IMG/VR virus record: IMGVR_UViG_3300004097_000033
Coordinates: 1-31,411 of that record
Direction: 5' to 3' (one strand)
Length of the DNA: 31,411 bases
From: a virus
Part shown: in pieces, positions 6,662 to 15,799 of the stretch
Layout of the letters: the number at the start of each line of letters is the position of its first letter
How positions within the stretch are numbered: the first letter of the stretch is position 1
Program-made: the position numbers and the translations under genes
Notes under the pieces: model-generated
Told to the model about the DNA's origin: nothing
The model's input: only the letters and a program-made list of their open reading frames with translations
Database searches by the model: none

Positions 6662-7321
6662 CTAAAAATCAAATGGGAAGCTATTGTTTCTTGGGCTTAG
6701 TCTACCGCCACTAACTGAAAATCCAGCAACTTCCCTGTGGAGAATATTTAGTCCAAAGTTTACTTGAAAATACCGAGGGGCAGCAGTAACATTTGTTTGC
6801 CCTTCATCAAGACCTTCTCCCTCGCCAATCTGCGGGGTGTTGATAATAGAAGATGGATCTGCATATTCAAAGTTCATGCCATCCAAAAATCCGATCTCAT
6901 CCAACAAGGGGGCAGATTGGTCTCCAAGAGGCCGAAAAATCACTCTGAAAAGCGGAGGAGAGACCAAAGTAGTATTGGAACTACCATCATAAACTGGATA
7001 CTGATTAACCATAAGTTCCTTCAGTCTTAAAAACTGTTCTACTGCCATATCGGTATCTTGCTGCAAGGTTAAGAAAGTCATTTGTGCCTTTCTTTCATTA
7101 CCCTGATAGAACATTATTGGATCTGTTCTGCCAAATACTCTTTCTTTAGTTGTGCTTACTGAGATATTATCTGAATAACTCGTGACAATAATCGGAGCGA
7201 ACCTGATAAAATCAGCGTCTCCTGCACCTGTTGCAGTATGTAGAGGCAAGAAATCGACGCGACCAACTTGTTTAAGTTGTTCGTCGTTTCCATCAAAGCC
7301 GGAATCATAAATATTAGTCAT
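6662..7321 (-). CDS. Putative tail-tube initiator or hub-proximal baseplate protein
   Basis: This 219-residue, beta-rich protein starts at the ATG at 7321, whose first base is the last base of the tape-measure TAA (TAATG). The core reads VFGRTDPIMFYQGNERKAQM (about residues 62-81), a tube-like beta motif in which a turn of the R-T-D-P type precedes strands. Later come PPLFRVIFRPLGD and a C-terminal strand pair ending NFGLNILHREVAG. Proteins of this shape, placed just after the tape measure and before a LysM protein, nucleate the tail tube on the hub in many myophages, comparable in role to T4 gp54 or gp48. That role is inferred from position and style, not proven by a motif. Confidence 0.7.
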   Translation of the reverse strand: MTNIYDSGFDGNDEQLKQVGRVDFLPLHTATGAGDADFIRFAPIIVTSYSDNISVSTTKERVFGRTDPIMFYQGNERKAQMTFLTLQQDTDMAVEQFLRLKELMVNQYPVYDGSSNTTLVSPPLFRVIFRPLGDQSAPLLDEIGFLDGMNFEYADPSSIINTPQIGEGEGLDEGQTNVTAAPRYFQVNFGLNILHREVAGFSVSGGRLSPRNNSFPFDF

Positions 7322-9321
7322 TATACGATCCTATCTCCTCTACTAATTAGTCCAGCGATGGAATTGTAAAGATTGGGGTTGAGAGCAGAATCGACCTTAA
7401 TACTATTAACTATTGTCTTGATTTCTTGCCCGTCAATGCTCAAGCTAATATTCATATTGACAGGACCACCAGCCGCTGCTGTAGAACCTCCGGAAGTTGC
7501 GGGGGTTCTTGTAGCTGCTCTGGTTAAGTTAGTGCCAGCCATAACCGTGTCTCTGTTGTTAAGGCTAATCGCACCTTCTGGTCCTAACAACACTCTTCCG
7601 CCTCGACCAGAAGAACCAGTTGGGCCGGAAAGTACATCATCACCGGGAATAAGTTGGCCTATGCCTCCGACGGCTACCGCTCCTGCAAGATAAGGTAGAA
7701 CAGGGGTTAGTGCTCCGAGTATTCCTAGAATAGGGCCTGATAACGCTAATAACGCTGCAACACCTACGCCGCCTAAAAACACTTTACCAAGAGGAGTTGA
7801 CAATACATTCATTATCCCTTCTACAATAAACTGAACGCCTGTAGCAAGCATTCCGATCAAATCAACGACTGGTCCGAGACTAATGACTGTTGATTGCAAA
7901 ATATTATTGAACTTTTCCAACACTGTGTTGAAGTCTCTTTGCTGGTCTTTCAGTGCTTGAATATCTTCTATAGGCATTATTTCAGGAGGGGCTACCGCCT
8001 CAAGATTACCTGCCATTAGAAGAGCTAGATCATTAACATCTTCGAGACCCGGTATTGTGTCAGCCAGCATCTGCCTCTCATAGAATCCCAACTGCTCGAA
8101 AGATAGACCTGCGTCATCGAGGGCCTGACCTATCATCCTAAGTTTTTCTGCTGGATCAGTAGTCTCGATCATCTGTATCGTGCTTAGGAACGGGCCGCCT
8201 AGAATAGAGTTAAGGGTTCCAACATTTTGTGCGGCACTTTCAAAAGTATTAAACCCTTTCGCAATATTGATAAGCTTGGAGATACTTAATCCAGTAGCAT
8301 CAGCTTGTGCAGCCAATAAATCAAACTGTTGTGTCAACTCCTCTGAGTTTTGAGCAGAAGCTCCTAGAACACCCTGAGCTTGTTCAAATCCTTGTACCAG
8401 TTGGTCAATTGGCATATCTAGTTCGTCTGCAAGACTTGCCAATCTTGTATTAAACTGAGCAGCTTGTGTAGCTGATGTGCCCATAGATTTAGTAAGGAAA
8501 AGAATGCTCCGTGCTTGAGCACCAGCATCGAAGCCCATTTTGGCTAATAAAGCGGTAGTTTGTGTAATCTCTGATCTTGCTTCTGGTGTTAAGTCGGCAA
8601 AATCTCTTATCGTTGTGAATAGTGATTGGAATGCTCCGATTGTTCCAGCTTGGCCAATACCGACGCCAAGAAGCTGTCCGGAGAGATTTTGTAGCTCTGC
8701 GTTAAACTGTCCGGTTGTTCCAGTTGCTTTATTGAACTGTGTGATTAAGCCATCTTGCTCTATGGCAGCTTTAAAGTTTGCAGCAGCAACAGCAGTCAAG
8801 CCCTCGAACAGCTTATCTGCGAGCATAATATTAACATTTAAAGGTGAGGCTGCGTCTTTTAATGTTGTTGTAAAACCTTTATAGGCAGAGTTTGCAGCCT
8901 CAGTGAAAGATCCTAGCTTAGCAGAGTTTGATACCAGTCTCCCAAACCCAGTTTGAGGACCTTGGCCGATTCCGAGCACGGCTGCCGCAAGGTCTGAAGC
9001 GCCTTGAGCGCCTTGGCTAAAAGAATCATTTAGAGCTTTCTGCTGTTGTAGTAGCTTATCTTGATTTGCGAGCGCGGCTCTTGCATTGGCTTCGGCTTGC
9101 TCATTCTGTTCAGCCATAGCTCTTTCTAGGTTCCTAATGGCATCTTCGCGAGCTTTAGCTTGTGTCTTAAGATCGTCGTCCAACTTGATCTGAAGCTTAA
9201 GTGCCTCGTTGGTAAGCCCAATGGAGTTCATAAACTCTGTTTGTGCTTCAGCGATTGCTAATAGTGTTGCGGCTTTATTTCCTGTCGGTCCACCGCCGCC
9301 AATATCACCCGGATCAGACAT
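7321..9321 (-). CDS. Tail tape measure protein
   Basis: This 666-residue protein has the classic tape-measure make-up. There is a long helical N-terminus (about residues 20-100) rich in Ala, Gln, Glu and Lys. Extended Ala/Gly/Gln-rich helices follow. A strongly hydrophobic stretch with several possible membrane-spanning helices lies at about 475-550, before a Gly/Ser/Thr-rich tail. It sets tail length and is thought to pass into the host envelope during DNA entry. T4 gp29 is 590 residues, so a slightly longer tail is expected if length scales. The start at 9321 has GAGG 6 nt upstream and lies 11 nt after the previous stop. Position downstream of tube and chaperone genes matches the general tail-gene order. 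Confidence 0.88.
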   Translation of the reverse strand: MSDPGDIGGGGPTGNKAATLLAIAEAQTEFMNSIGLTNEALKLQIKLDDDLKTQAKAREDAIRNLERAMAEQNEQAEANARAALANQDKLLQQQKALNDSFSQGAQGASDLAAAVLGIGQGPQTGFGRLVSNSAKLGSFTEAANSAYKGFTTTLKDAASPLNVNIMLADKLFEGLTAVAAANFKAAIEQDGLITQFNKATGTTGQFNAELQNLSGQLLGVGIGQAGTIGAFQSLFTTIRDFADLTPEARSEITQTTALLAKMGFDAGAQARSILFLTKSMGTSATQAAQFNTRLASLADELDMPIDQLVQGFEQAQGVLGASAQNSEELTQQFDLLAAQADATGLSISKLINIAKGFNTFESAAQNVGTLNSILGGPFLSTIQMIETTDPAEKLRMIGQALDDAGLSFEQLGFYERQMLADTIPGLEDVNDLALLMAGNLEAVAPPEIMPIEDIQALKDQQRDFNTVLEKFNNILQSTVISLGPVVDLIGMLATGVQFIVEGIMNVLSTPLGKVFLGGVGVAALLALSGPILGILGALTPVLPYLAGAVAVGGIGQLIPGDDVLSGPTGSSGRGGRVLLGPEGAISLNNRDTVMAGTNLTRAATRTPATSGGSTAAAGGPVNMNISLSIDGQEIKTIVNSIKVDSALNPNLYNSIAGLISRGDRIV

Positions 9322-9332
9322 TCATTACCTCA

Positions 9333-10454
9333 TCAAACAAATGGCCACTTAAGACCAGTTTCTCTCTCAAAGTTACGAATCGAAGAAGCAAGTTCTGCTC
9401 TTGAAGTGTAAGTTTGTCGATTATTAAGGCCATACTTCTTAATTGAGTCAATATATTTCTTTTCACCAGTAATAGCTTTTCCAAAAGCTGCAACTTCGCT
9501 AGGTGTCCCTTTAACTTGTACTGGGAAAGAAGTGTCGCCAAAAATGAACTTAAGGATGATTTTAATCCAAGTTCTGAACATGAGCATGAAACTCTCATCG
9601 AGTTTGCTCACTCTTTTCGCCTCGTTAAGATCCAAAACCAACTTGAAGCTCTCTGTAACTGCACCACCGAGACTCTGATACTTCTCTTTGACCGCTGCCT
9701 CAAGCTTTGATACCAAGCTGTTTATTTCTTGAGGGTTTGTATAATATTCGTCTTTACTTAATACATCACGTACAAAGTTATCGCTCAAGCTCATGCCTCT
9801 AGCCATCGGTGTGAACTCTTTACTCATTTCCGTTTTGCCCGGAAACTGGTCTGACAGTCTAGGGTTTGCATCAATAAAAGACTGTTTTCCAAACTTTTTG
9901 AATGAGTTTTGGACATAACTATAAAACTTACTTTTTAAGTTGTCAAAATAAGGCTCTGTATTGTTACTATGGTCACGCAGAAGATCAATAAGCTTTTCTT
10001 GATACTTTGAAGCTGACGTTTCTTTTGCCGGATCGGGGGCAGTTGGGGCCTCTTCGTCCTTAAACTGTGTCATGGCCTTGAGAACGTCTTCAAGATTTGC
10101 ATCTCCTTGGCCAAGTTCTTGCTTGATAGCCTTGGTGATTACTTCAAGACCCTCTTCGTCTCGTGCCATTAAAGCGTCAATCGCCTTAAGTTCTTCAGGG
10201 CTGAGCGACGCTAAGCCAGTGCTCTCTTCCAGTGCGGCAACGTCCATCGGACCAGACTGCTCTTCGGTGTAGCCTATCATGCTATAGATTTCACTTGTTG
10301 GAGAATACTGGAATATAAAGTTAACAAGTTCTCTGAAGAGTGGGCTACTCTCTTGATCTTGTCCGGCCAACAGCAAAAATCTTGCTGCGTATCTTACAAA
10401 ATCATCTGATGCCTTTATAAATTTACTAGGCATTATCTGCCGTTCGTTAAGCAT
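9333..10454 (-). CDS. Unknown tail-module protein
   Basis: I do not recognise this 373-residue protein. It starts at ATG 10454, with GGAG 7 nt upstream, just after a terminator and a copy of the promoter-like motif. It therefore probably begins a new transcript carrying the tape measure and baseplate genes. The N-terminus (about 10-60) is hydrophobic-helical and aromatic. Residues 65-145 are acidic and Glu/Asp/Ala-rich. The remainder is basic with alternating Lys and aromatic residues and ends in KWPFV. There is no signal peptide, cysteine cluster or catalytic motif. Its place between chaperone and tape measure suggests tail assembly or a tail-tip component. A lower-quality frame at 9314-9598 on the same strand overlaps its end and looks like a shadow. 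Confidence 0.8.
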   Translation of the reverse strand: MLNERQIMPSKFIKASDDFVRYAARFLLLAGQDQESSPLFRELVNFIFQYSPTSEIYSMIGYTEEQSGPMDVAALEESTGLASLSPEELKAIDALMARDEEGLEVITKAIKQELGQGDANLEDVLKAMTQFKDEEAPTAPDPAKETSASKYQEKLIDLLRDHSNNTEPYFDNLKSKFYSYVQNSFKKFGKQSFIDANPRLSDQFPGKTEMSKEFTPMARGMSLSDNFVRDVLSKDEYYTNPQEINSLVSKLEAAVKEKYQSLGGAVTESFKLVLDLNEAKRVSKLDESFMLMFRTWIKIILKFIFGDTSFPVQVKGTPSEVAAFGKAITGEKKYIDSIKKYGLNNRQTYTSRAELASSIRNFERETGLKWPFV

Positions 10455-10480: not shown

Positions 10481-10484
10481 TTAT

Positions 10485-10513
10485 AAAAAAGAAAGCCGGG
10501 TATTATCCCGGCT
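10485..10513 (-). terminator. Rho-independent terminator after the tail-chaperone extension
   Basis: On the minus strand AGCCGGG and CCCGGCT form a 7-bp GC-rich stem around ATAATA, followed by TTCTTTTTT. The stem begins inside the stop codon of the frameshift extension. It would end the transcript carrying the sheath, tube and chaperone genes. Confidence 0.85.
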
Positions 10514-10707
10514 ATTTATTTTTCTTTTGCGCTTTTTCATATTCTTTCTTCTCGTCTTCCTTCTGCTTGATCAGTCGCTCTAAGAACCAACGGCGGATCG
10601 GAATCGGAAGATTGTATGTCTCGAAGAAATCCCACTGTCCATGATATTTTAAAAGGAATAGTTCCTCATAGACAGTTTGAATATAATCATTGTTTAGGCC
10701 AAAAAAA
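10512..10707 (-). CDS. C-terminal extension of tail assembly chaperone, probably reached by frameshifting
   Basis: Downstream of the T7 run at 10707-10701, the frame shifted +1 (equivalently -2) from the gp26-like gene is open for 62 codons to a TAG at 10512. The peptide starts GLNNDYIQTVYEELFLLKY and includes YNLPIPIRRWFLERLIKQ, then a Lys/Glu-rich helical end. It has no ATG, GTG or TTG that could start it before its middle. The ATG overlapping the gp26-like stop is in the wrong frame. The composition and the aromatic/Arg pattern look like real protein. The position between tube and tape-measure genes is exactly where other tailed phages make a frameshifted tail-chaperone fusion. A fusion would be about 334 residues. 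A homopolymer error (T6 read as T7) would also explain the split. Confidence 0.7.
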
Positions 10708-11517
10708 TTCCACTGACATAGGCAGTTCCACCTCCTGTAGCATCATGCAGTTATTACAGGCGATGTTCATGTTTGTGTTCATAGTTGGGCTAACCTTAGC
10801 ATGGACTTCTCGCAGATACTTTGAATCCCTAAACGGCATATTCTGAATGAAGTTGTAAATCTGGCCCTTTGCATCCACTCCGTTGATGCTATGAACAATG
10901 AACATCAACTGCGTAACTAGAGCACCAGTTTCGGCACCTTGCTTCTTTTGCTTTTGAATATGGGCGGTCATTTCCTTTTCATCTCTGCCAACCAAAAGTC
11001 GAAGAGCTACCTTGACGCCAGTTACAGGAAGCGTACAGACATAATGCCCATCCACAAACTCAACATCGTCTAGACTAACTTCTTTTGGTTCAATTTCTGA
11101 TAGGTCGAAATCGTTTGTTACAGCTTGGTTACAGGATCGACAGAAGAACTTTGTTTTGTATTCTGGGCCATATGCAGAGATCCGGGCAGCATACATGATC
11201 GCTGTCTTGTCTCCCAATAGCATGTCATCCACGCTTATTCGCTTATCTACAATAAGGCTTTGAATCAAACGATCCAAGACCACACCCTTTTTAATAAGTT
11301 CCTGAGAAGCGAGAATATCCTCCTCCTTGGCGGTCATGAACTTGATCTCGATTGATGTGCTGCCATGAAGTGGGTGACCTTCAGGGTAGTGTTCTCCCTT
11401 TGAAGGAAGATCAACAAACTGTGTTGGTGCCACAAAGGACATTAAGTCAACAGCTTTAGGCTGTTCTGGTGCGGGCTCTTCAGCAGGAGCCGCAAAACGA
11501 GAACTATTATCTCTCAT
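10687..11517 (-). CDS. gp26-like baseplate hub / tail assembly chaperone protein
   Basis: The product is 276 residues and starts at ATG 11517, with GGAG in the usual place. After a Pro/Ala/Glu-rich N-terminus, residues 36-70 read VDLPSKGEHYPEGHPL, then IEIKFMTAKEEDIL. This is the conserved opening of a family annotated as gp26-type hub or tail-assembly protein in T4-like phages. LLGDKTAIMYAARISAYG (101-117) continues that pattern. Two cysteine pairs, C126/C129 and C254/C257, form a likely zinc-binding site. The tail ends FFWPKQ just before a TGA at 10687. A run of seven T in the last codons offers a slip site into a 62-codon extension. By position the protein probably coats the tape measure during tail assembly; the link is inferred. 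Confidence 0.8.
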   Translation of the reverse strand: MRDNSSRFAAPAEEPAPEQPKAVDLMSFVAPTQFVDLPSKGEHYPEGHPLHGSTSIEIKFMTAKEEDILASQELIKKGVVLDRLIQSLIVDKRISVDDMLLGDKTAIMYAARISAYGPEYKTKFFCRSCNQAVTNDFDLSEIEPKEVSLDDVEFVDGHYVCTLPVTGVKVALRLLVGRDEKEMTAHIQKQKKQGAETGALVTQLMFIVHSINGVDAKGQIYNFIQNMPFRDSKYLREVHAKVSPTMNTNMNIACNNCMMLQEVELPMSVEFFWPKQ

Positions 11518-11575: not shown

Positions 11576-12178
11576 TTAATTTTGATTACCAAATGTATAT
11601 GTATTATTCCCAAGCTCAACCTTAAACCCAGTATAGCCTAACCTGATACTAAGTTCAAGCAAACTATCATCGGAATAACTTAAGTCTCCAAAATCCACGC
11701 CAATAATGTATGGCTGGAAAAGCGTCCAAGTTTCAACTGGCTCTAGATTACTGGCACCGTCCTGAACTGGTTTTTTGTGAGCAAGCTGCTGTATTTCTAC
11801 AACACCAAGATTCCTTGTCGCATTGGGTAGGCCATAGTAGTTACCAGTCTTTCCTGCATCTTGCATATAAGACATCAGTTTTTCTGTTACCTTGCTTGCA
11901 GGTCTAGAGCCATTCGGATCTACGAATGCTATTGTTATTGGGCTGAAAGCATTCAAGGCACCCGGATTAATATATCCGACCTTCTGCCCTACTTGGCCAG
12001 CACCCATCATATAAGTGTTTGCCTGAGGGCCAGCATTGGCATCGTATTCGATGGAAGGCTTATCAACTGATTTTGCCCACCATAAAACTTCGTTTTCAAA
12101 AAGATTATCCATTCTCACCAAGAATAGGTCTTTTTTCTTGGGAGAAAGGATATTTTCTGTGTCTGTCCAAAAAGTCAT
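11576..12178 (-). CDS. Second tail tube-like protein (gp19 family paralogue)
   Basis: This 200-residue protein starts at ATG 12178 with GGAG 9 nt upstream. It begins FWTDTENILSPKKKDLFLV and contains LWWAKSVDKPSIEY, AFVDPNGS and a C-terminal LSYSDDSLLELSIRLGYTGF. The neighbouring tube gene has FWTNTNTPVDPKRNF, IWWARDVDQPAA, LVDPVTPG and LSYTNEELMTVALGIRYDW in the same places. The two are clearly paralogues of the gp19 tube fold, although overall identity is low. One copy may form the tube and the other a tube start, tube end or minor component. T4 gp48 and gp54 do this with the same fold, but they are encoded elsewhere. Confidence 0.8.
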   Translation of the reverse strand: MTFWTDTENILSPKKKDLFLVRMDNLFENEVLWWAKSVDKPSIEYDANAGPQANTYMMGAGQVGQKVGYINPGALNAFSPITIAFVDPNGSRPASKVTEKLMSYMQDAGKTGNYYGLPNATRNLGVVEIQQLAHKKPVQDGASNLEPVETWTLFQPYIIGVDFGDLSYSDDSLLELSIRLGYTGFKVELGNNTYTFGNQN

Positions 12179-12221: not shown

Positions 12222-12809
12222 TCAGACTTTGAATAAACCAGTTCCTAGAACAGCTTCCGGAAGCTCATTGTTGAGTGATTGGTATGAAGCCCAATCGTAG
12301 CGAATACCAAGAGCAACTGTCATTAACTCTTCATTGGTGTATGAAAGCTGTGAAGGTGCAACTGACTTGATGAAAGCGTTATTGAGGGTCCACTGGTGCA
12401 GTGGCAGGCCAACAGCATTTAAGACCTCAATAGTAACCGCGCCGCCGTCTGCCAAAGCATCTACAGCATCTGGCTTACTGATAGAACTGTAAGCAGCCGG
12501 AGTATTAGGATCTGAAGGGAGAACGTAGCCAGTATTTTGTAGAGTAAGAAGAAGTTGGTCTAATGTTCCCGGTGTAACTGGATCTACAAGGGTCATATTA
12601 ACCTCGTTCCACGTTACCTTGGAAGGATAGTAGAACCTATGGGTCATAAAGTCATGAGTAGCTTCTGAAACAGTAGCTGCTGGCTGATCTACGTCTCTGG
12701 CCCACCAGATACCTTGTCCGAAAAGGGATACCCTAAAACGGAAGTTACGCTTTGGATCTACCGGTGTGTTGGTGTTAGTCCAAAAGTTTTGTGGGTTGTC
12801 AAATGGCAT
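12222..12809 (-). CDS. 19: Tail tube protein (gp19-like)
   Basis: The product is 195 residues, starting at ATG 12809 behind AAGGAG and a copy of the promoter-like motif. It opens with FWTNTNTPVDPKRNFRFRV and has IWWARDVDQP (about 33-42), a membrane-free beta-rich core and LSYTNEELMTVALGIRYDW near the end. T4 gp19 is 163 residues and forms the hexameric rings of the inner tail tube inside the sheath. Placement immediately after the sheath gene is the standard 18-19 order. A second tube-like gene follows. Because this copy is next to the sheath and has its own probable promoter, I take it as the main tube protein. Confidence 0.85.
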   Translation of the reverse strand: MPFDNPQNFWTNTNTPVDPKRNFRFRVSLFGQGIWWARDVDQPAATVSEATHDFMTHRFYYPSKVTWNEVNMTLVDPVTPGTLDQLLLTLQNTGYVLPSDPNTPAAYSSISKPDAVDALADGGAVTIEVLNAVGLPLHQWTLNNAFIKSVAPSQLSYTNEELMTVALGIRYDWASYQSLNNELPEAVLGTGLFKV

Positions 12810-12841: not shown

Positions 12842-15799
12842 TCAGTCGTCAAAAGAAGCGCCGGATCTCGTGATAATAAAGTCAAGAGCGATGAACTCAA
12901 TAGAGCGGGTTGGCTTAATGTAGACCTTAGCATAGAGAATGTTTCGATCAACAAGATCTGGGGTTGTTGTTGTCTCGTCAAGAACGACACGGTAGTCATC
13001 TAGACCAAATCCAATCTTAACACTGCTCAAGAAGCTCTCAGCGGCGTTTCTGAATCGGTTCCAAGTTGCCGGTACATTCTGCTCGAAGAGAGTGGTGGCA
13101 GCAATCTGTGAGATGCCTTTCTTCAAGAAGATGAGTAGACGACGGACGTTAATTCTGTCGAGGGCAGAAGGTGTTGCTTGTAGCGTCTTCTGTCCGAAGA
13201 CTACAATGCCTTCTGCTGGGAATCGTGCGATTGGGTTAATATTGCGGCTGTAGAGTCGGTCGCGGTCACGAGCGTTCAAGACTTCATCAACATTAACTAC
13301 TGAGATACCAGCCGATCCGTTGGAGATACCGCCGCGATTGAAGCCAGCAGGGGCAAACCATACATCTGCAACTCTCTCGGTGTTAGCGAGAACACCGATA
13401 GCAGGAACAGTTGGTGGAACTCGGAGCGACGTAGCACTGATTGTATCCTGCATAAGGACCCAAGGGTAGTAAGCTGCACCGTAAGAGTTGTTTAGGTTTC
13501 TTGTATCAATATCATTAACAACTGCCTCTACAGTACCCTTTCTGGATGTAGGATCAGTCACGTACTGCTCGTGTGGCGGATTGTAGCCGCCCTTGACATC
13601 AATAACTGCGAGAGCGTCGCCACGTTGCTCACAGACTTCCAGAGCACGGTCGGTGACACCAGAGTACCAAACGCCGGGAACACTAAGTAGGTTGTACTCA
13701 AACTGCTCAGCATCAGTTAGAATATCAAGAGCAGTTCTATATGTATTTAGAACGTAGTTGTTGGTGAGAGTTGGGCTCTGGCCATCCATTAAGCGGTTGC
13801 GAAGTGGATCTCTTTCGTAAACAGAGAATCCGTCGAAGCCGCCGAAGAAAGGTGCGGTGAACTTGGTGAACCCAGCATCAATAATATTCTTGTAAGTTGC
13901 TGTTGGGGGACGTCCCGCGCCACTGCTTGTAGCAGTAAATGAGGTACCAGCGGCTCTAGAACCAGAAGTGTAAACCGCTCTAGCAATGTTTGCTTGCTTA
14001 TTAGTAGAGAAGTTATAATCAGAGTTCAATACAACAACAACATTGTCTAGCGTGAAAGCATCTTCAAATGCGACACCGGTTGGGAGAGTGCTGACAGATA
14101 GGCCAAAGTTATCTGTCCATACTGTAGCTCCAACAACGTCTTCGCCCAAGAATCGACCATAATCAACATACCCTTCATCAAAAGTGGTGCTTGTTTCGGT
14201 CTTTGTTGTACTAACTCCGAAGAAGTCAGTTCGTGCGTCGGAAACATCAGATGCGGTTACACGAGTAGGGAAACTTGGGAAGTTAACAGTACCTGTAGCT
14301 GTTGAGGCTGACATGACATAAGCAGCGGCACCTGCTCCATTAGAACCAGTGAACCCACCCTTAGCAATGTAGCGAGCACTGTAGTTGTCTGTTCTCGCGC
14401 CGCTTACTTGTGTTACGGTTTCATACTTAGGAACACCGTAGTATCCGAACGGAAGCAATGCCGGAGTATCGCCGGCTGCGACATCAGTGCTAACGACAAC
14501 ACGGACAAGGTTTGAGCGATTTGGGAAATCTCCGTATTCCTTAAGAGTTCTCGTTGTGTCGTCAAACTTCCTGTAGCTATCGCCAATCCTAGCAACAATG
14601 TAGTTGCTTGAGTTAGGATCAAGGTTACAGTTTGTAAATGTTTCTATGGCATCAATGTTGCCATCTGTGTCTTTTACATTACGAACAAAGACATCGAAGG
14701 TACCAAAGCTAACCTTGTCATTTGGAGAGTATTGGACATTTCCAATTGAGACCTTAAGTCCTGAGTTGGCATACTGTCCTTGTCCGTTCAATGAGACAAA
14801 CTTGAATAGCGGAATAGCTCTTGATCGGTCAGCAGGGCTAAATGAGGCACTGTTTGCGCTAAGATCCTGTGAGATAAACCAAGGCGTCTGTGCTTCGCGG
14901 TATCCTGAGCGGCGATTTGCGTAACCTGCGGCTCCGTTTCGGTTCAGAGGAAGAACAGCAGCAAAGTAGTTTGTGTTAGTGTTGATAACACTATCTTTGA
15001 CTGATCTCTCAAATGTCTCGCCCAACCAGTAGTTAAGGGTCTTGTTAGGGTCTTCAACAGAAGCTACTGGTGCATCGGAACGATAGACAGAGAGTTGTGG
15101 GTTTGTATTTAGGACGCTGCGAATGTAGTTAGGATCGTTTTCATCAAAAGAAACTTTGTATGTTTCGCTAGTGCCAGCACTTGAAGAGACTACCAAATCA
15201 ACTTGTGCAGTTGTCCCAAGGTCAAACAGAATGTTCATACCAGCCGCTGCGACGCCACCTTCCGCAGTACCAGTTGGATAAATGGCGGTGCCACTAGCAT
15301 AGAGAACTGCTGCCAATGTTCCAGTTGCGGCAGCCTTACCGGCACCAGCACTCGCTGATCCAAACAAGAAGAGGCCGAAAGCACCAGCAGTATCTTCTGC
15401 TTTTGGATTTGTTGCTGCGGTGGGTACATCGAAACCGGCTTCGCCAAAGGTATCGGCGGTTGCGTTATTGTTTTCAACTCCAGCTAGTCTAACATAAGTA
15501 AGTGGAGTATCACCAGCAAGCAAGTGAGCTTGAGCAGCGTATGTTCCATACATAGGTGAGTTAAGAGCACCGTTACGCCAAACATCTCCGGGCTGTTGGG
15601 ATCCGGGGACTGGTCGGCCAAACTTGGTGACAAATTCACTAAATGAACTTACCTTTGTTGGGCTCATGACTGGACCACGCTGAGCGCGGCCTATAATAAC
15701 CGGACCAATGGCTTCTGGTGTTGCAGGAACCTGTGAGCGGTCAAGTTCGGTAATAAAAATACCGGGTGATACGAATCTGAAGTTTCTTTCGGCTGCCAT
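12842..15799 (-). CDS. 18: Contractile tail sheath protein (gp18-like)
   Basis: This 985-residue protein opens FRFVSPGIFITELDRSQVP and GPVIIGRAQRGPVMSP, the diagnostic N-terminus of myophage sheath proteins. The C-terminal domain has VWFAPAGFNRG, then NPIARFPAEGIVVFGQKTL, then INVRRLLIFLKKGI and a terminal beta arm with YIKPTRSIEFIALDFIITR. These are the handshake and inner-ring elements that bind the tube and the next sheath subunit. T4 gp18 is 659 residues, so about 300 residues are extra. The additional sequence lies in the Gly/Ala/Ser/Thr-rich middle (about 130-650), where surface domains of sheaths vary. Start: ATG 15799 behind AGGAG. The protein contracts to drive the tube through the host envelope. 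Confidence 0.95.
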   Translation of the reverse strand: MAAERNFRFVSPGIFITELDRSQVPATPEAIGPVIIGRAQRGPVMSPTKVSSFSEFVTKFGRPVPGSQQPGDVWRNGALNSPMYGTYAAQAHLLAGDTPLTYVRLAGVENNNATADTFGEAGFDVPTAATNPKAEDTAGAFGLFLFGSASAGAGKAAATGTLAAVLYASGTAIYPTGTAEGGVAAAGMNILFDLGTTAQVDLVVSSSAGTSETYKVSFDENDPNYIRSVLNTNPQLSVYRSDAPVASVEDPNKTLNYWLGETFERSVKDSVINTNTNYFAAVLPLNRNGAAGYANRRSGYREAQTPWFISQDLSANSASFSPADRSRAIPLFKFVSLNGQGQYANSGLKVSIGNVQYSPNDKVSFGTFDVFVRNVKDTDGNIDAIETFTNCNLDPNSSNYIVARIGDSYRKFDDTTRTLKEYGDFPNRSNLVRVVVSTDVAAGDTPALLPFGYYGVPKYETVTQVSGARTDNYSARYIAKGGFTGSNGAGAAAYVMSASTATGTVNFPSFPTRVTASDVSDARTDFFGVSTTKTETSTTFDEGYVDYGRFLGEDVVGATVWTDNFGLSVSTLPTGVAFEDAFTLDNVVVVLNSDYNFSTNKQANIARAVYTSGSRAAGTSFTATSSGAGRPPTATYKNIIDAGFTKFTAPFFGGFDGFSVYERDPLRNRLMDGQSPTLTNNYVLNTYRTALDILTDAEQFEYNLLSVPGVWYSGVTDRALEVCEQRGDALAVIDVKGGYNPPHEQYVTDPTSRKGTVEAVVNDIDTRNLNNSYGAAYYPWVLMQDTISATSLRVPPTVPAIGVLANTERVADVWFAPAGFNRGGISNGSAGISVVNVDEVLNARDRDRLYSRNINPIARFPAEGIVVFGQKTLQATPSALDRINVRRLLIFLKKGISQIAATTLFEQNVPATWNRFRNAAESFLSSVKIGFGLDDYRVVLDETTTTPDLVDRNILYAKVYIKPTRSIEFIALDFIITRSGASFDD

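Follow-up and report, generated by a model that had tools for sequence, protein, structure and literature searches.

Two-frame chaperone genes are known from phage lambda, where the overlapping G and T frames near the tube and tape measure genes give a short and a long product by a −1 slip. A 2016 review presents this G/GT model and describes the G-T frameshifting as conserved in the long-tailed phages 'except T4' (PMC5009743). Slips of +1 also arise in the tail genes of tailed viruses, in the tail chaperone of the myovirus HSTV-2 and in Listeria phage PSA (PMC5009743). The T4-like chaperone genes and their poly-T −1 signals are already published (Vladimirov, Gautam and Davidson 2022, Virology 566:9–15, as conveyed in PMC12846349), and neither gp26/gp51 as chaperones nor −1 shifting in some T4-like phages is new.

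Here, the window is the whole analysed stretch of DNA, 31,411 nucleotides from a virus of bacteria. Its gp26-like gene very probably yields a short and a long tail assembly chaperone through a programmed +1 frameshift, as argued from sequence comparison. It shares with the T4-like gp26/gp51 the PF12322 domain, the short and long pair and, for some of them, a poly-T signal at the 3′ end of the short gene, but the signals as conveyed in PMC12846349 are −1 whereas that of the window is a predicted +1 at YUU_UGG. The original prediction knew of no slip in the gp26-type family. Shifts of −1 are already published there, and the +1 version, of which we found no description in the open full-text literature, appears undescribed.

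The other described systems differ in further ways. Lambda G/GT is likened to the window by layout, its slip being −1. The PSA slip occurs at Pro codons before a stop or a pseudoknot, and HSTV-2 infects archaea, with gp26 homology not reported in that review (PMC5009743). The T4-type genomes have two genes and no shift.

The gene ends in GAA TTT TTT TGG CCT AAA CAA TGA and a frame one base over is open for 62 codons beyond the slip, just as the original prediction read it (Table 1). The gene matches PF12322 (T4_baseplate) with an E value of 4.9e-10 and 39.9 bits against the curated cut-off of 24.5, and phrog_150 (baseplate hub) with an E value of 5.4e-13. Conceptual translation with one +1 step gives a fusion of 334 aa, equal to the size foreseen, and the second frame does end inside a terminator, its stop overlapping the stem. 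The gene order runs from the sheath through two tube-like genes to the gp26-like gene. Hence the predicted place exactly between tube and tape measure is right on the tube side, while a 373-aa gene without any match in Pfam or PHROG intervenes before the tape-measure-like gene. The sheath gene is unusually long, coding for 985 aa, and its conserved sheath domains lie at the C-terminal end.

Table 1. Positions in the window of the gp26-like gene, its two frames and the neighbouring features.
Feature	Position	Strand	Remark
gp26-like gene, short form (TAC-N)	11517..10687	-	276 aa; PF12322 and phrog_150
AGGAGGT, Shine-Dalgarno-like, candidate stimulator	10736..10730	-	22 nt 5′ of the T run
Open +1 frame	10742..10515	-	
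Conserved slip site TTT TTT TGG CCT	10707..10696	-	predicted: P-site codon 10704-10702 moves +1 onto 10703-10701; A site UGG
Run of seven T	10707..10701	-	
0-frame stop (TGA)	10689..10687	-	
+1-frame domain, C-terminal part of putative long form (TAC-NC, P0002)	10700..10512	-	62 codons (10700-10515) and TAG
+1-frame stop (TAG)	10514..10512	-	
Intrinsic terminator	10513..10484	-	7-pair stem, 6 GC, T-rich tail; stem (10513-10494) overlaps the +1-frame stop
Sheath gene	12842..15799		
Tube-like gene	12222..12809		
Tail tube-like gene, directly upstream	11576..12178	-	phrog_4542, E 5.5e-9
373-aa gene	9333..10454		
Tape-measure-like gene, downstream	7321..9321	-	phrog_167, E 1.7e-8

A scan of viral contigs returned 80 relatives. 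In those with a match up to the 3′ end of the gene, the gp26 frame ends in ...FFWP(K/E/D/R)... and the +1 frame continues as ...FFGLSDEYIENVYEQFFLLKYHGGWSFIEAYNLP..RRWF..RL. Two other queries added 138 distinct loci, in which the +1 frame is open for at least 40 codons in all those not cut by a contig end, and 49 of the 138 lack a start codon before the shift. The homologue alignment proposed with the original prediction finds the two-frame arrangement in all relatives that extend far enough.

The downstream domain is conserved as protein. Between the window and its close relatives, pS is 0.68–0.88 and pN is 0.08–0.19 in the +1 domain, while the two remaining frames of this DNA mostly give pN/pS above 1, and these values indicate that purifying selection acts on the +1-frame domain. 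The fusions from different clades align through the junction. By these comparisons the two-frame layout is more than chance, and hundreds of mostly marine relatives are seen to retain the same slip site. Hundreds of distinct loci keep the layout together with the slip site and the downstream domain, and a programmed frameshift, called probable at the outset, explains this far better than any rival.

The variants of the slip site indicate the direction of the slip. We surveyed the pattern TTY YTY at the two slip codons in 218 confirmed loci, related to one another and hence not independent counts, and found 207 TTT TTT, 7 TTC TTT and 4 TTT CTT, with no other combination of this pattern. Pooled, 362 distinct protein-level sites, likewise non-independent, comprise 348 TTT TTT, 7 TTC TTT and 7 TTT CTT. 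As many as 338 are identical to TTT TTT TGG CCT, and the rest read TTC TTT TGG, TTT CTT TGG or TTT TTT TTC or have TCT or ACT as the fourth codon. TTC TTT TGG and TTT CTT TGG each occur in at least five lineages, and the nearest relative usually has the common form.

None of the 362 sites has a second slip codon that ends in C (TTT TTC or CTC). The upstream Phe codons are 77% TTT and 23% TTC, so the missing TTC is not a matter of codon bias. All 362 sites have a P-site YUU able to re-pair on UUU after a +1 step, and the A-site codon is UGG except for UUC in two. In the window's clade, the synonymous constraint is confined to TTT TTT TGG NCT and an upstream NTG GAG GTN and peaks at the slip site. 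The site rule as read from these variants is YUU_UGG, matching a +1 slip of the P-site tRNA at the second codon. The run of seven U is not required in itself, since the variants with four or three U persist.

This rule resembles that of the RF2 gene prfB, where a P-site YUU slips +1 onto UUU. CUU_U, the slip codon of RF2, is a natural variant among the window's relatives, and in tests cited in PMC10885494 UUU is one of the codons that slip best after it. The differences are that the A site holds UGA in RF2 and UGG here, and that no release-factor autoregulation is implied here. The canonical −1 heptamer X XXY YYZ is absent from the window's site, the base before TTT TTT being A and the product frame +1.

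A −2 backward slip as in phage Mu would give the same two products, the fusion having one more Phe, with the junction peptide ...SVEFFFGLNNDY... in place of ...SVEFFGLNNDY... expected for +1. The final frame is identical and TTT TTT permits it, as the original prediction noted in letting the P-site UUU re-pair perfectly after either slip. The first slip codon is TTT in 97% of the sites against 77% for the upstream Phe codons; this preference would not be explained by a +1 slip at the second codon and counts against that reading. However, TTC TTT TGG would force UUU to re-pair on UCU under −2, and TTT TTC TGG, expected to be tolerable under −2, never occurs. We assign +1 to the slip because TTC TTT, barred under −2, is found and TTT TTC, permitted under −2, is not. 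The tolerated and forbidden variants thus sustain the +1 half of that prediction and disagree with its −2 half, and we consider the backward slip unlikely.

The upstream element bears on the same choice. AGGAGGT lies close to its predicted place (about 25 nt before the T run), and AGGAGGT-like sequences are conserved. SD-like 4-mers occur at fixed upstream positions in 64–72% of loci in three clades, against a per-position background of about 1%, the loci being related to each other. These positions are −22/−21 in the window's clade overall, −29 to −27 in its own subclade, −30 to −27 in the second +1 clade and −15 to −13 in the cyanophages. The cyanophage spacing resembles that of known −1 sites. 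The conserved sequences lie 16–24 nt away, compared with 3 nt in RF2, to which the spacing of the +1 clades bears no likeness. Such a distance would suit the backward tension of a −2 slip better than +1 stimulation. The element is a possible stimulator. The downstream RNA folding is weak, with a mean z of −0.7 in the window's clade, −1.2 to −1.3 in the second +1 clade and −1.6 in the cyanophages, and we make no claim of a downstream pseudoknot on such signals.

Alternatively, RNA polymerase could slip on the homopolymer of seven T and produce a mixed mRNA population. A seven-base homopolymer is short for polymerase slippage. Moreover, the runs of only four U in TTC TTT TGG or three in TTT CTT TGG persist in several lineages and the constraint is codon-phased, making this account very improbable.

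Among the related phages, the gp26 genes of cyanophages, rhizobiophages and jumbo phages end at T TTT TTC (42 of 44) or T TTT TTT (2 of 44), and their −1 frame runs on into a related domain. The cyanophages S-SSM5 and S-RIM8 and Sinorhizobium phage phiM12 share with the window the domain order and a short ORF after which the same domain follows in a different frame, but use −1 at the canonical heptamer T TTT TTC, or T TTT TTT in phiM12. In several −1 members the −1 frame has a stop shortly before the slip and the domain is preceded by no start codon, which rules out a separate start as their explanation. In cyanophages and phiM12 (L103, L107, L104), a 'gp51 baseplate hub assembly catalyst' is annotated separately; our comparison shows it as the −1 continuation of gp26, and the annotated starts are doubtful.

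The window's +1 domain compares with the cyanophage gp51 domain at a profile score of 35.3, against at most 16.6 for shuffled columns. When the marine domain is compared by profile directly with the T4 gp51 C-terminus, the score does not exceed that of shuffled columns, and the link from the marine phages to T4 therefore rests on the cyanophage intermediates. T4 gp51, a single ORF, aligns over residues 6–244 with the cyanophage fusion as conceptually translated, and the match runs straight across the junction (E 5.4e-11). In alignment A3 the cyanophage short proteins stop at the position of gp51 F200, and the T4 gp26 C-terminus, ...LKEFFELL, is at the same place as the cyanophage short-protein end. 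PHROG 634 matches both the cyanophage −1-frame domain and gp51 147–246. Judged by homology, T4 gp51 is this fusion encoded in a single frame, and the T4-type genomes carry a short gene 26 and a long gene 51. The predicted fold of a T4-type gp51 (pLDDT 84) has no significant PDB match. One T4-type gp51 (L098, G302:C1:125062-125666) is split into two ORFs within the N-terminal domain, by an error or a real break.

The gene counts agree with this picture. There are two PF12322 genes in seven T4-type genomes and one in 16 of the 18 records with a shift layout (one reported as two pieces), while the other two have none by Pfam and one by tblastn with the window protein. Each genome would thus be able to make a short and a long form.

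The +1 frame is used also by SP-15, LIS04, GXN1 and an Erysipelotrichaceae-associated contig, with UUU followed by C or A. The site of Thornevirus LIS04, TTT TTT AGT, breaks the YUU_UGG rule, and NCC CGA was considered as a candidate Thornevirus slip site from few sequences. No annotated gene covers the whole second domain in LIS04, GXN1 and Flavobacterium phage immuto (among L005, L006, L007 and L003), and in SP-15 and immuto only a fragment of 36–40 codons is called downstream of the hub gene. A GC-rich relative (L191, 3649-3705) has the −1 frame after the C-rich TCC CCC CGG TAG and not a T run. In the huge-phage contig LR756508 (L004, 2730-2760) the domain is in the +1 frame with no recognisable slip codon (TTT CTA TTC CCT ACC GAG TGA).

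The second domain could also be made as a separate gene. Pfam DUF6760 (PF20546) matches the +1-frame domain of an actinobacterial-MAG-associated phage contig and also small ORFs that lie beside gp26-like genes of Actinomycetota, one belonging to a sheath-tube-tube locus; control genomes gave no PF20546 match. Most of these ORFs begin at GTGA or ATGA overlaps and look like coupled separate genes. In contractile injection-type loci (sheath, tube, tube) of Actinomycetota, the DUF6760 ORFs that come after gp26-like genes are L199–L209 and L612; L205 and L208 have no ATG, GTG or TTG near the junction, and the G run of L208, GCG GGG GGG CGA, is a possible slip site.

Translation of the window's 62-codon frame by such coupling or from an unusual start would thus have a related precedent, and ATT and CTG codons are present in the frame. 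However, where the original prediction excluded ATG, GTG and TTG up to the middle of the +1 frame, none exists anywhere from 10742 to 10512, and the ATGA overlap at the gp26 stop has its ATG in the third frame. A separate gene also leaves the codon-phased slip site unexplained, and the homology with T4 gp51 spans the junction; we hold it to be highly unlikely. Least credible of all is a sequencing error or a decayed gene, which error-prone homopolymers could suggest and the relatives rule out, as the same T7 in the independent contigs L009 and L010, the layout kept in hundreds of divergent loci and the purifying selection all stand against it.

The layout, its conservation, the selection on the domain, the YUU_UGG rule and the homology to cyanophage gp26/gp51 and T4 gp51 are all read from the aligned sequences. 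In the +1 mechanism we propose, most ribosomes would terminate at TGA to give the short form TAC-N of 276 aa. Some would pause when the peptidyl-tRNA sits on the second UUU and UGG, a Trp codon, occupies the A site; that tRNA would move one base forward onto the overlapping UUU, GGC would be decoded next, and the 62 additional codons would complete the long form TAC-NC of 334 aa. If the two forms act like those of lambda G/GT, the short one would coat the tape measure protein and tube subunits would be recruited by the long one. We infer that slipping takes place, and its rate, as well as the function as a chaperone and whatever part the SD-like element plays. The chances are roughly even that YUU_UGG with a distant SD-like element represents a bacterial +1 type independent of stop codons, driven by slow decoding of the Trp codon and setting the ratio of short to long chaperone in a large set of marine phages related to T4.

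The 362 sites, though related to each other, amount to a natural mutational scan of a +1 slip site whose A-site codon is a sense codon. The two-frame reading also corrects the annotation of many genomes, where the C-terminal domain is missing or labelled as a separate 'gp51'. The putative forward-slip version joins a frameshift trick already known from other tailed viruses, and the relatives show how T4 fits, set apart as it was by 'except T4' (PMC5009743). One chaperone pair would be made in at least three ways in related phages, by a −1 shift, by a +1 shift and from two genes as in T4 26 and 51, and the coupled separate small gene of the actinobacterial injection-system loci is likely a fourth.
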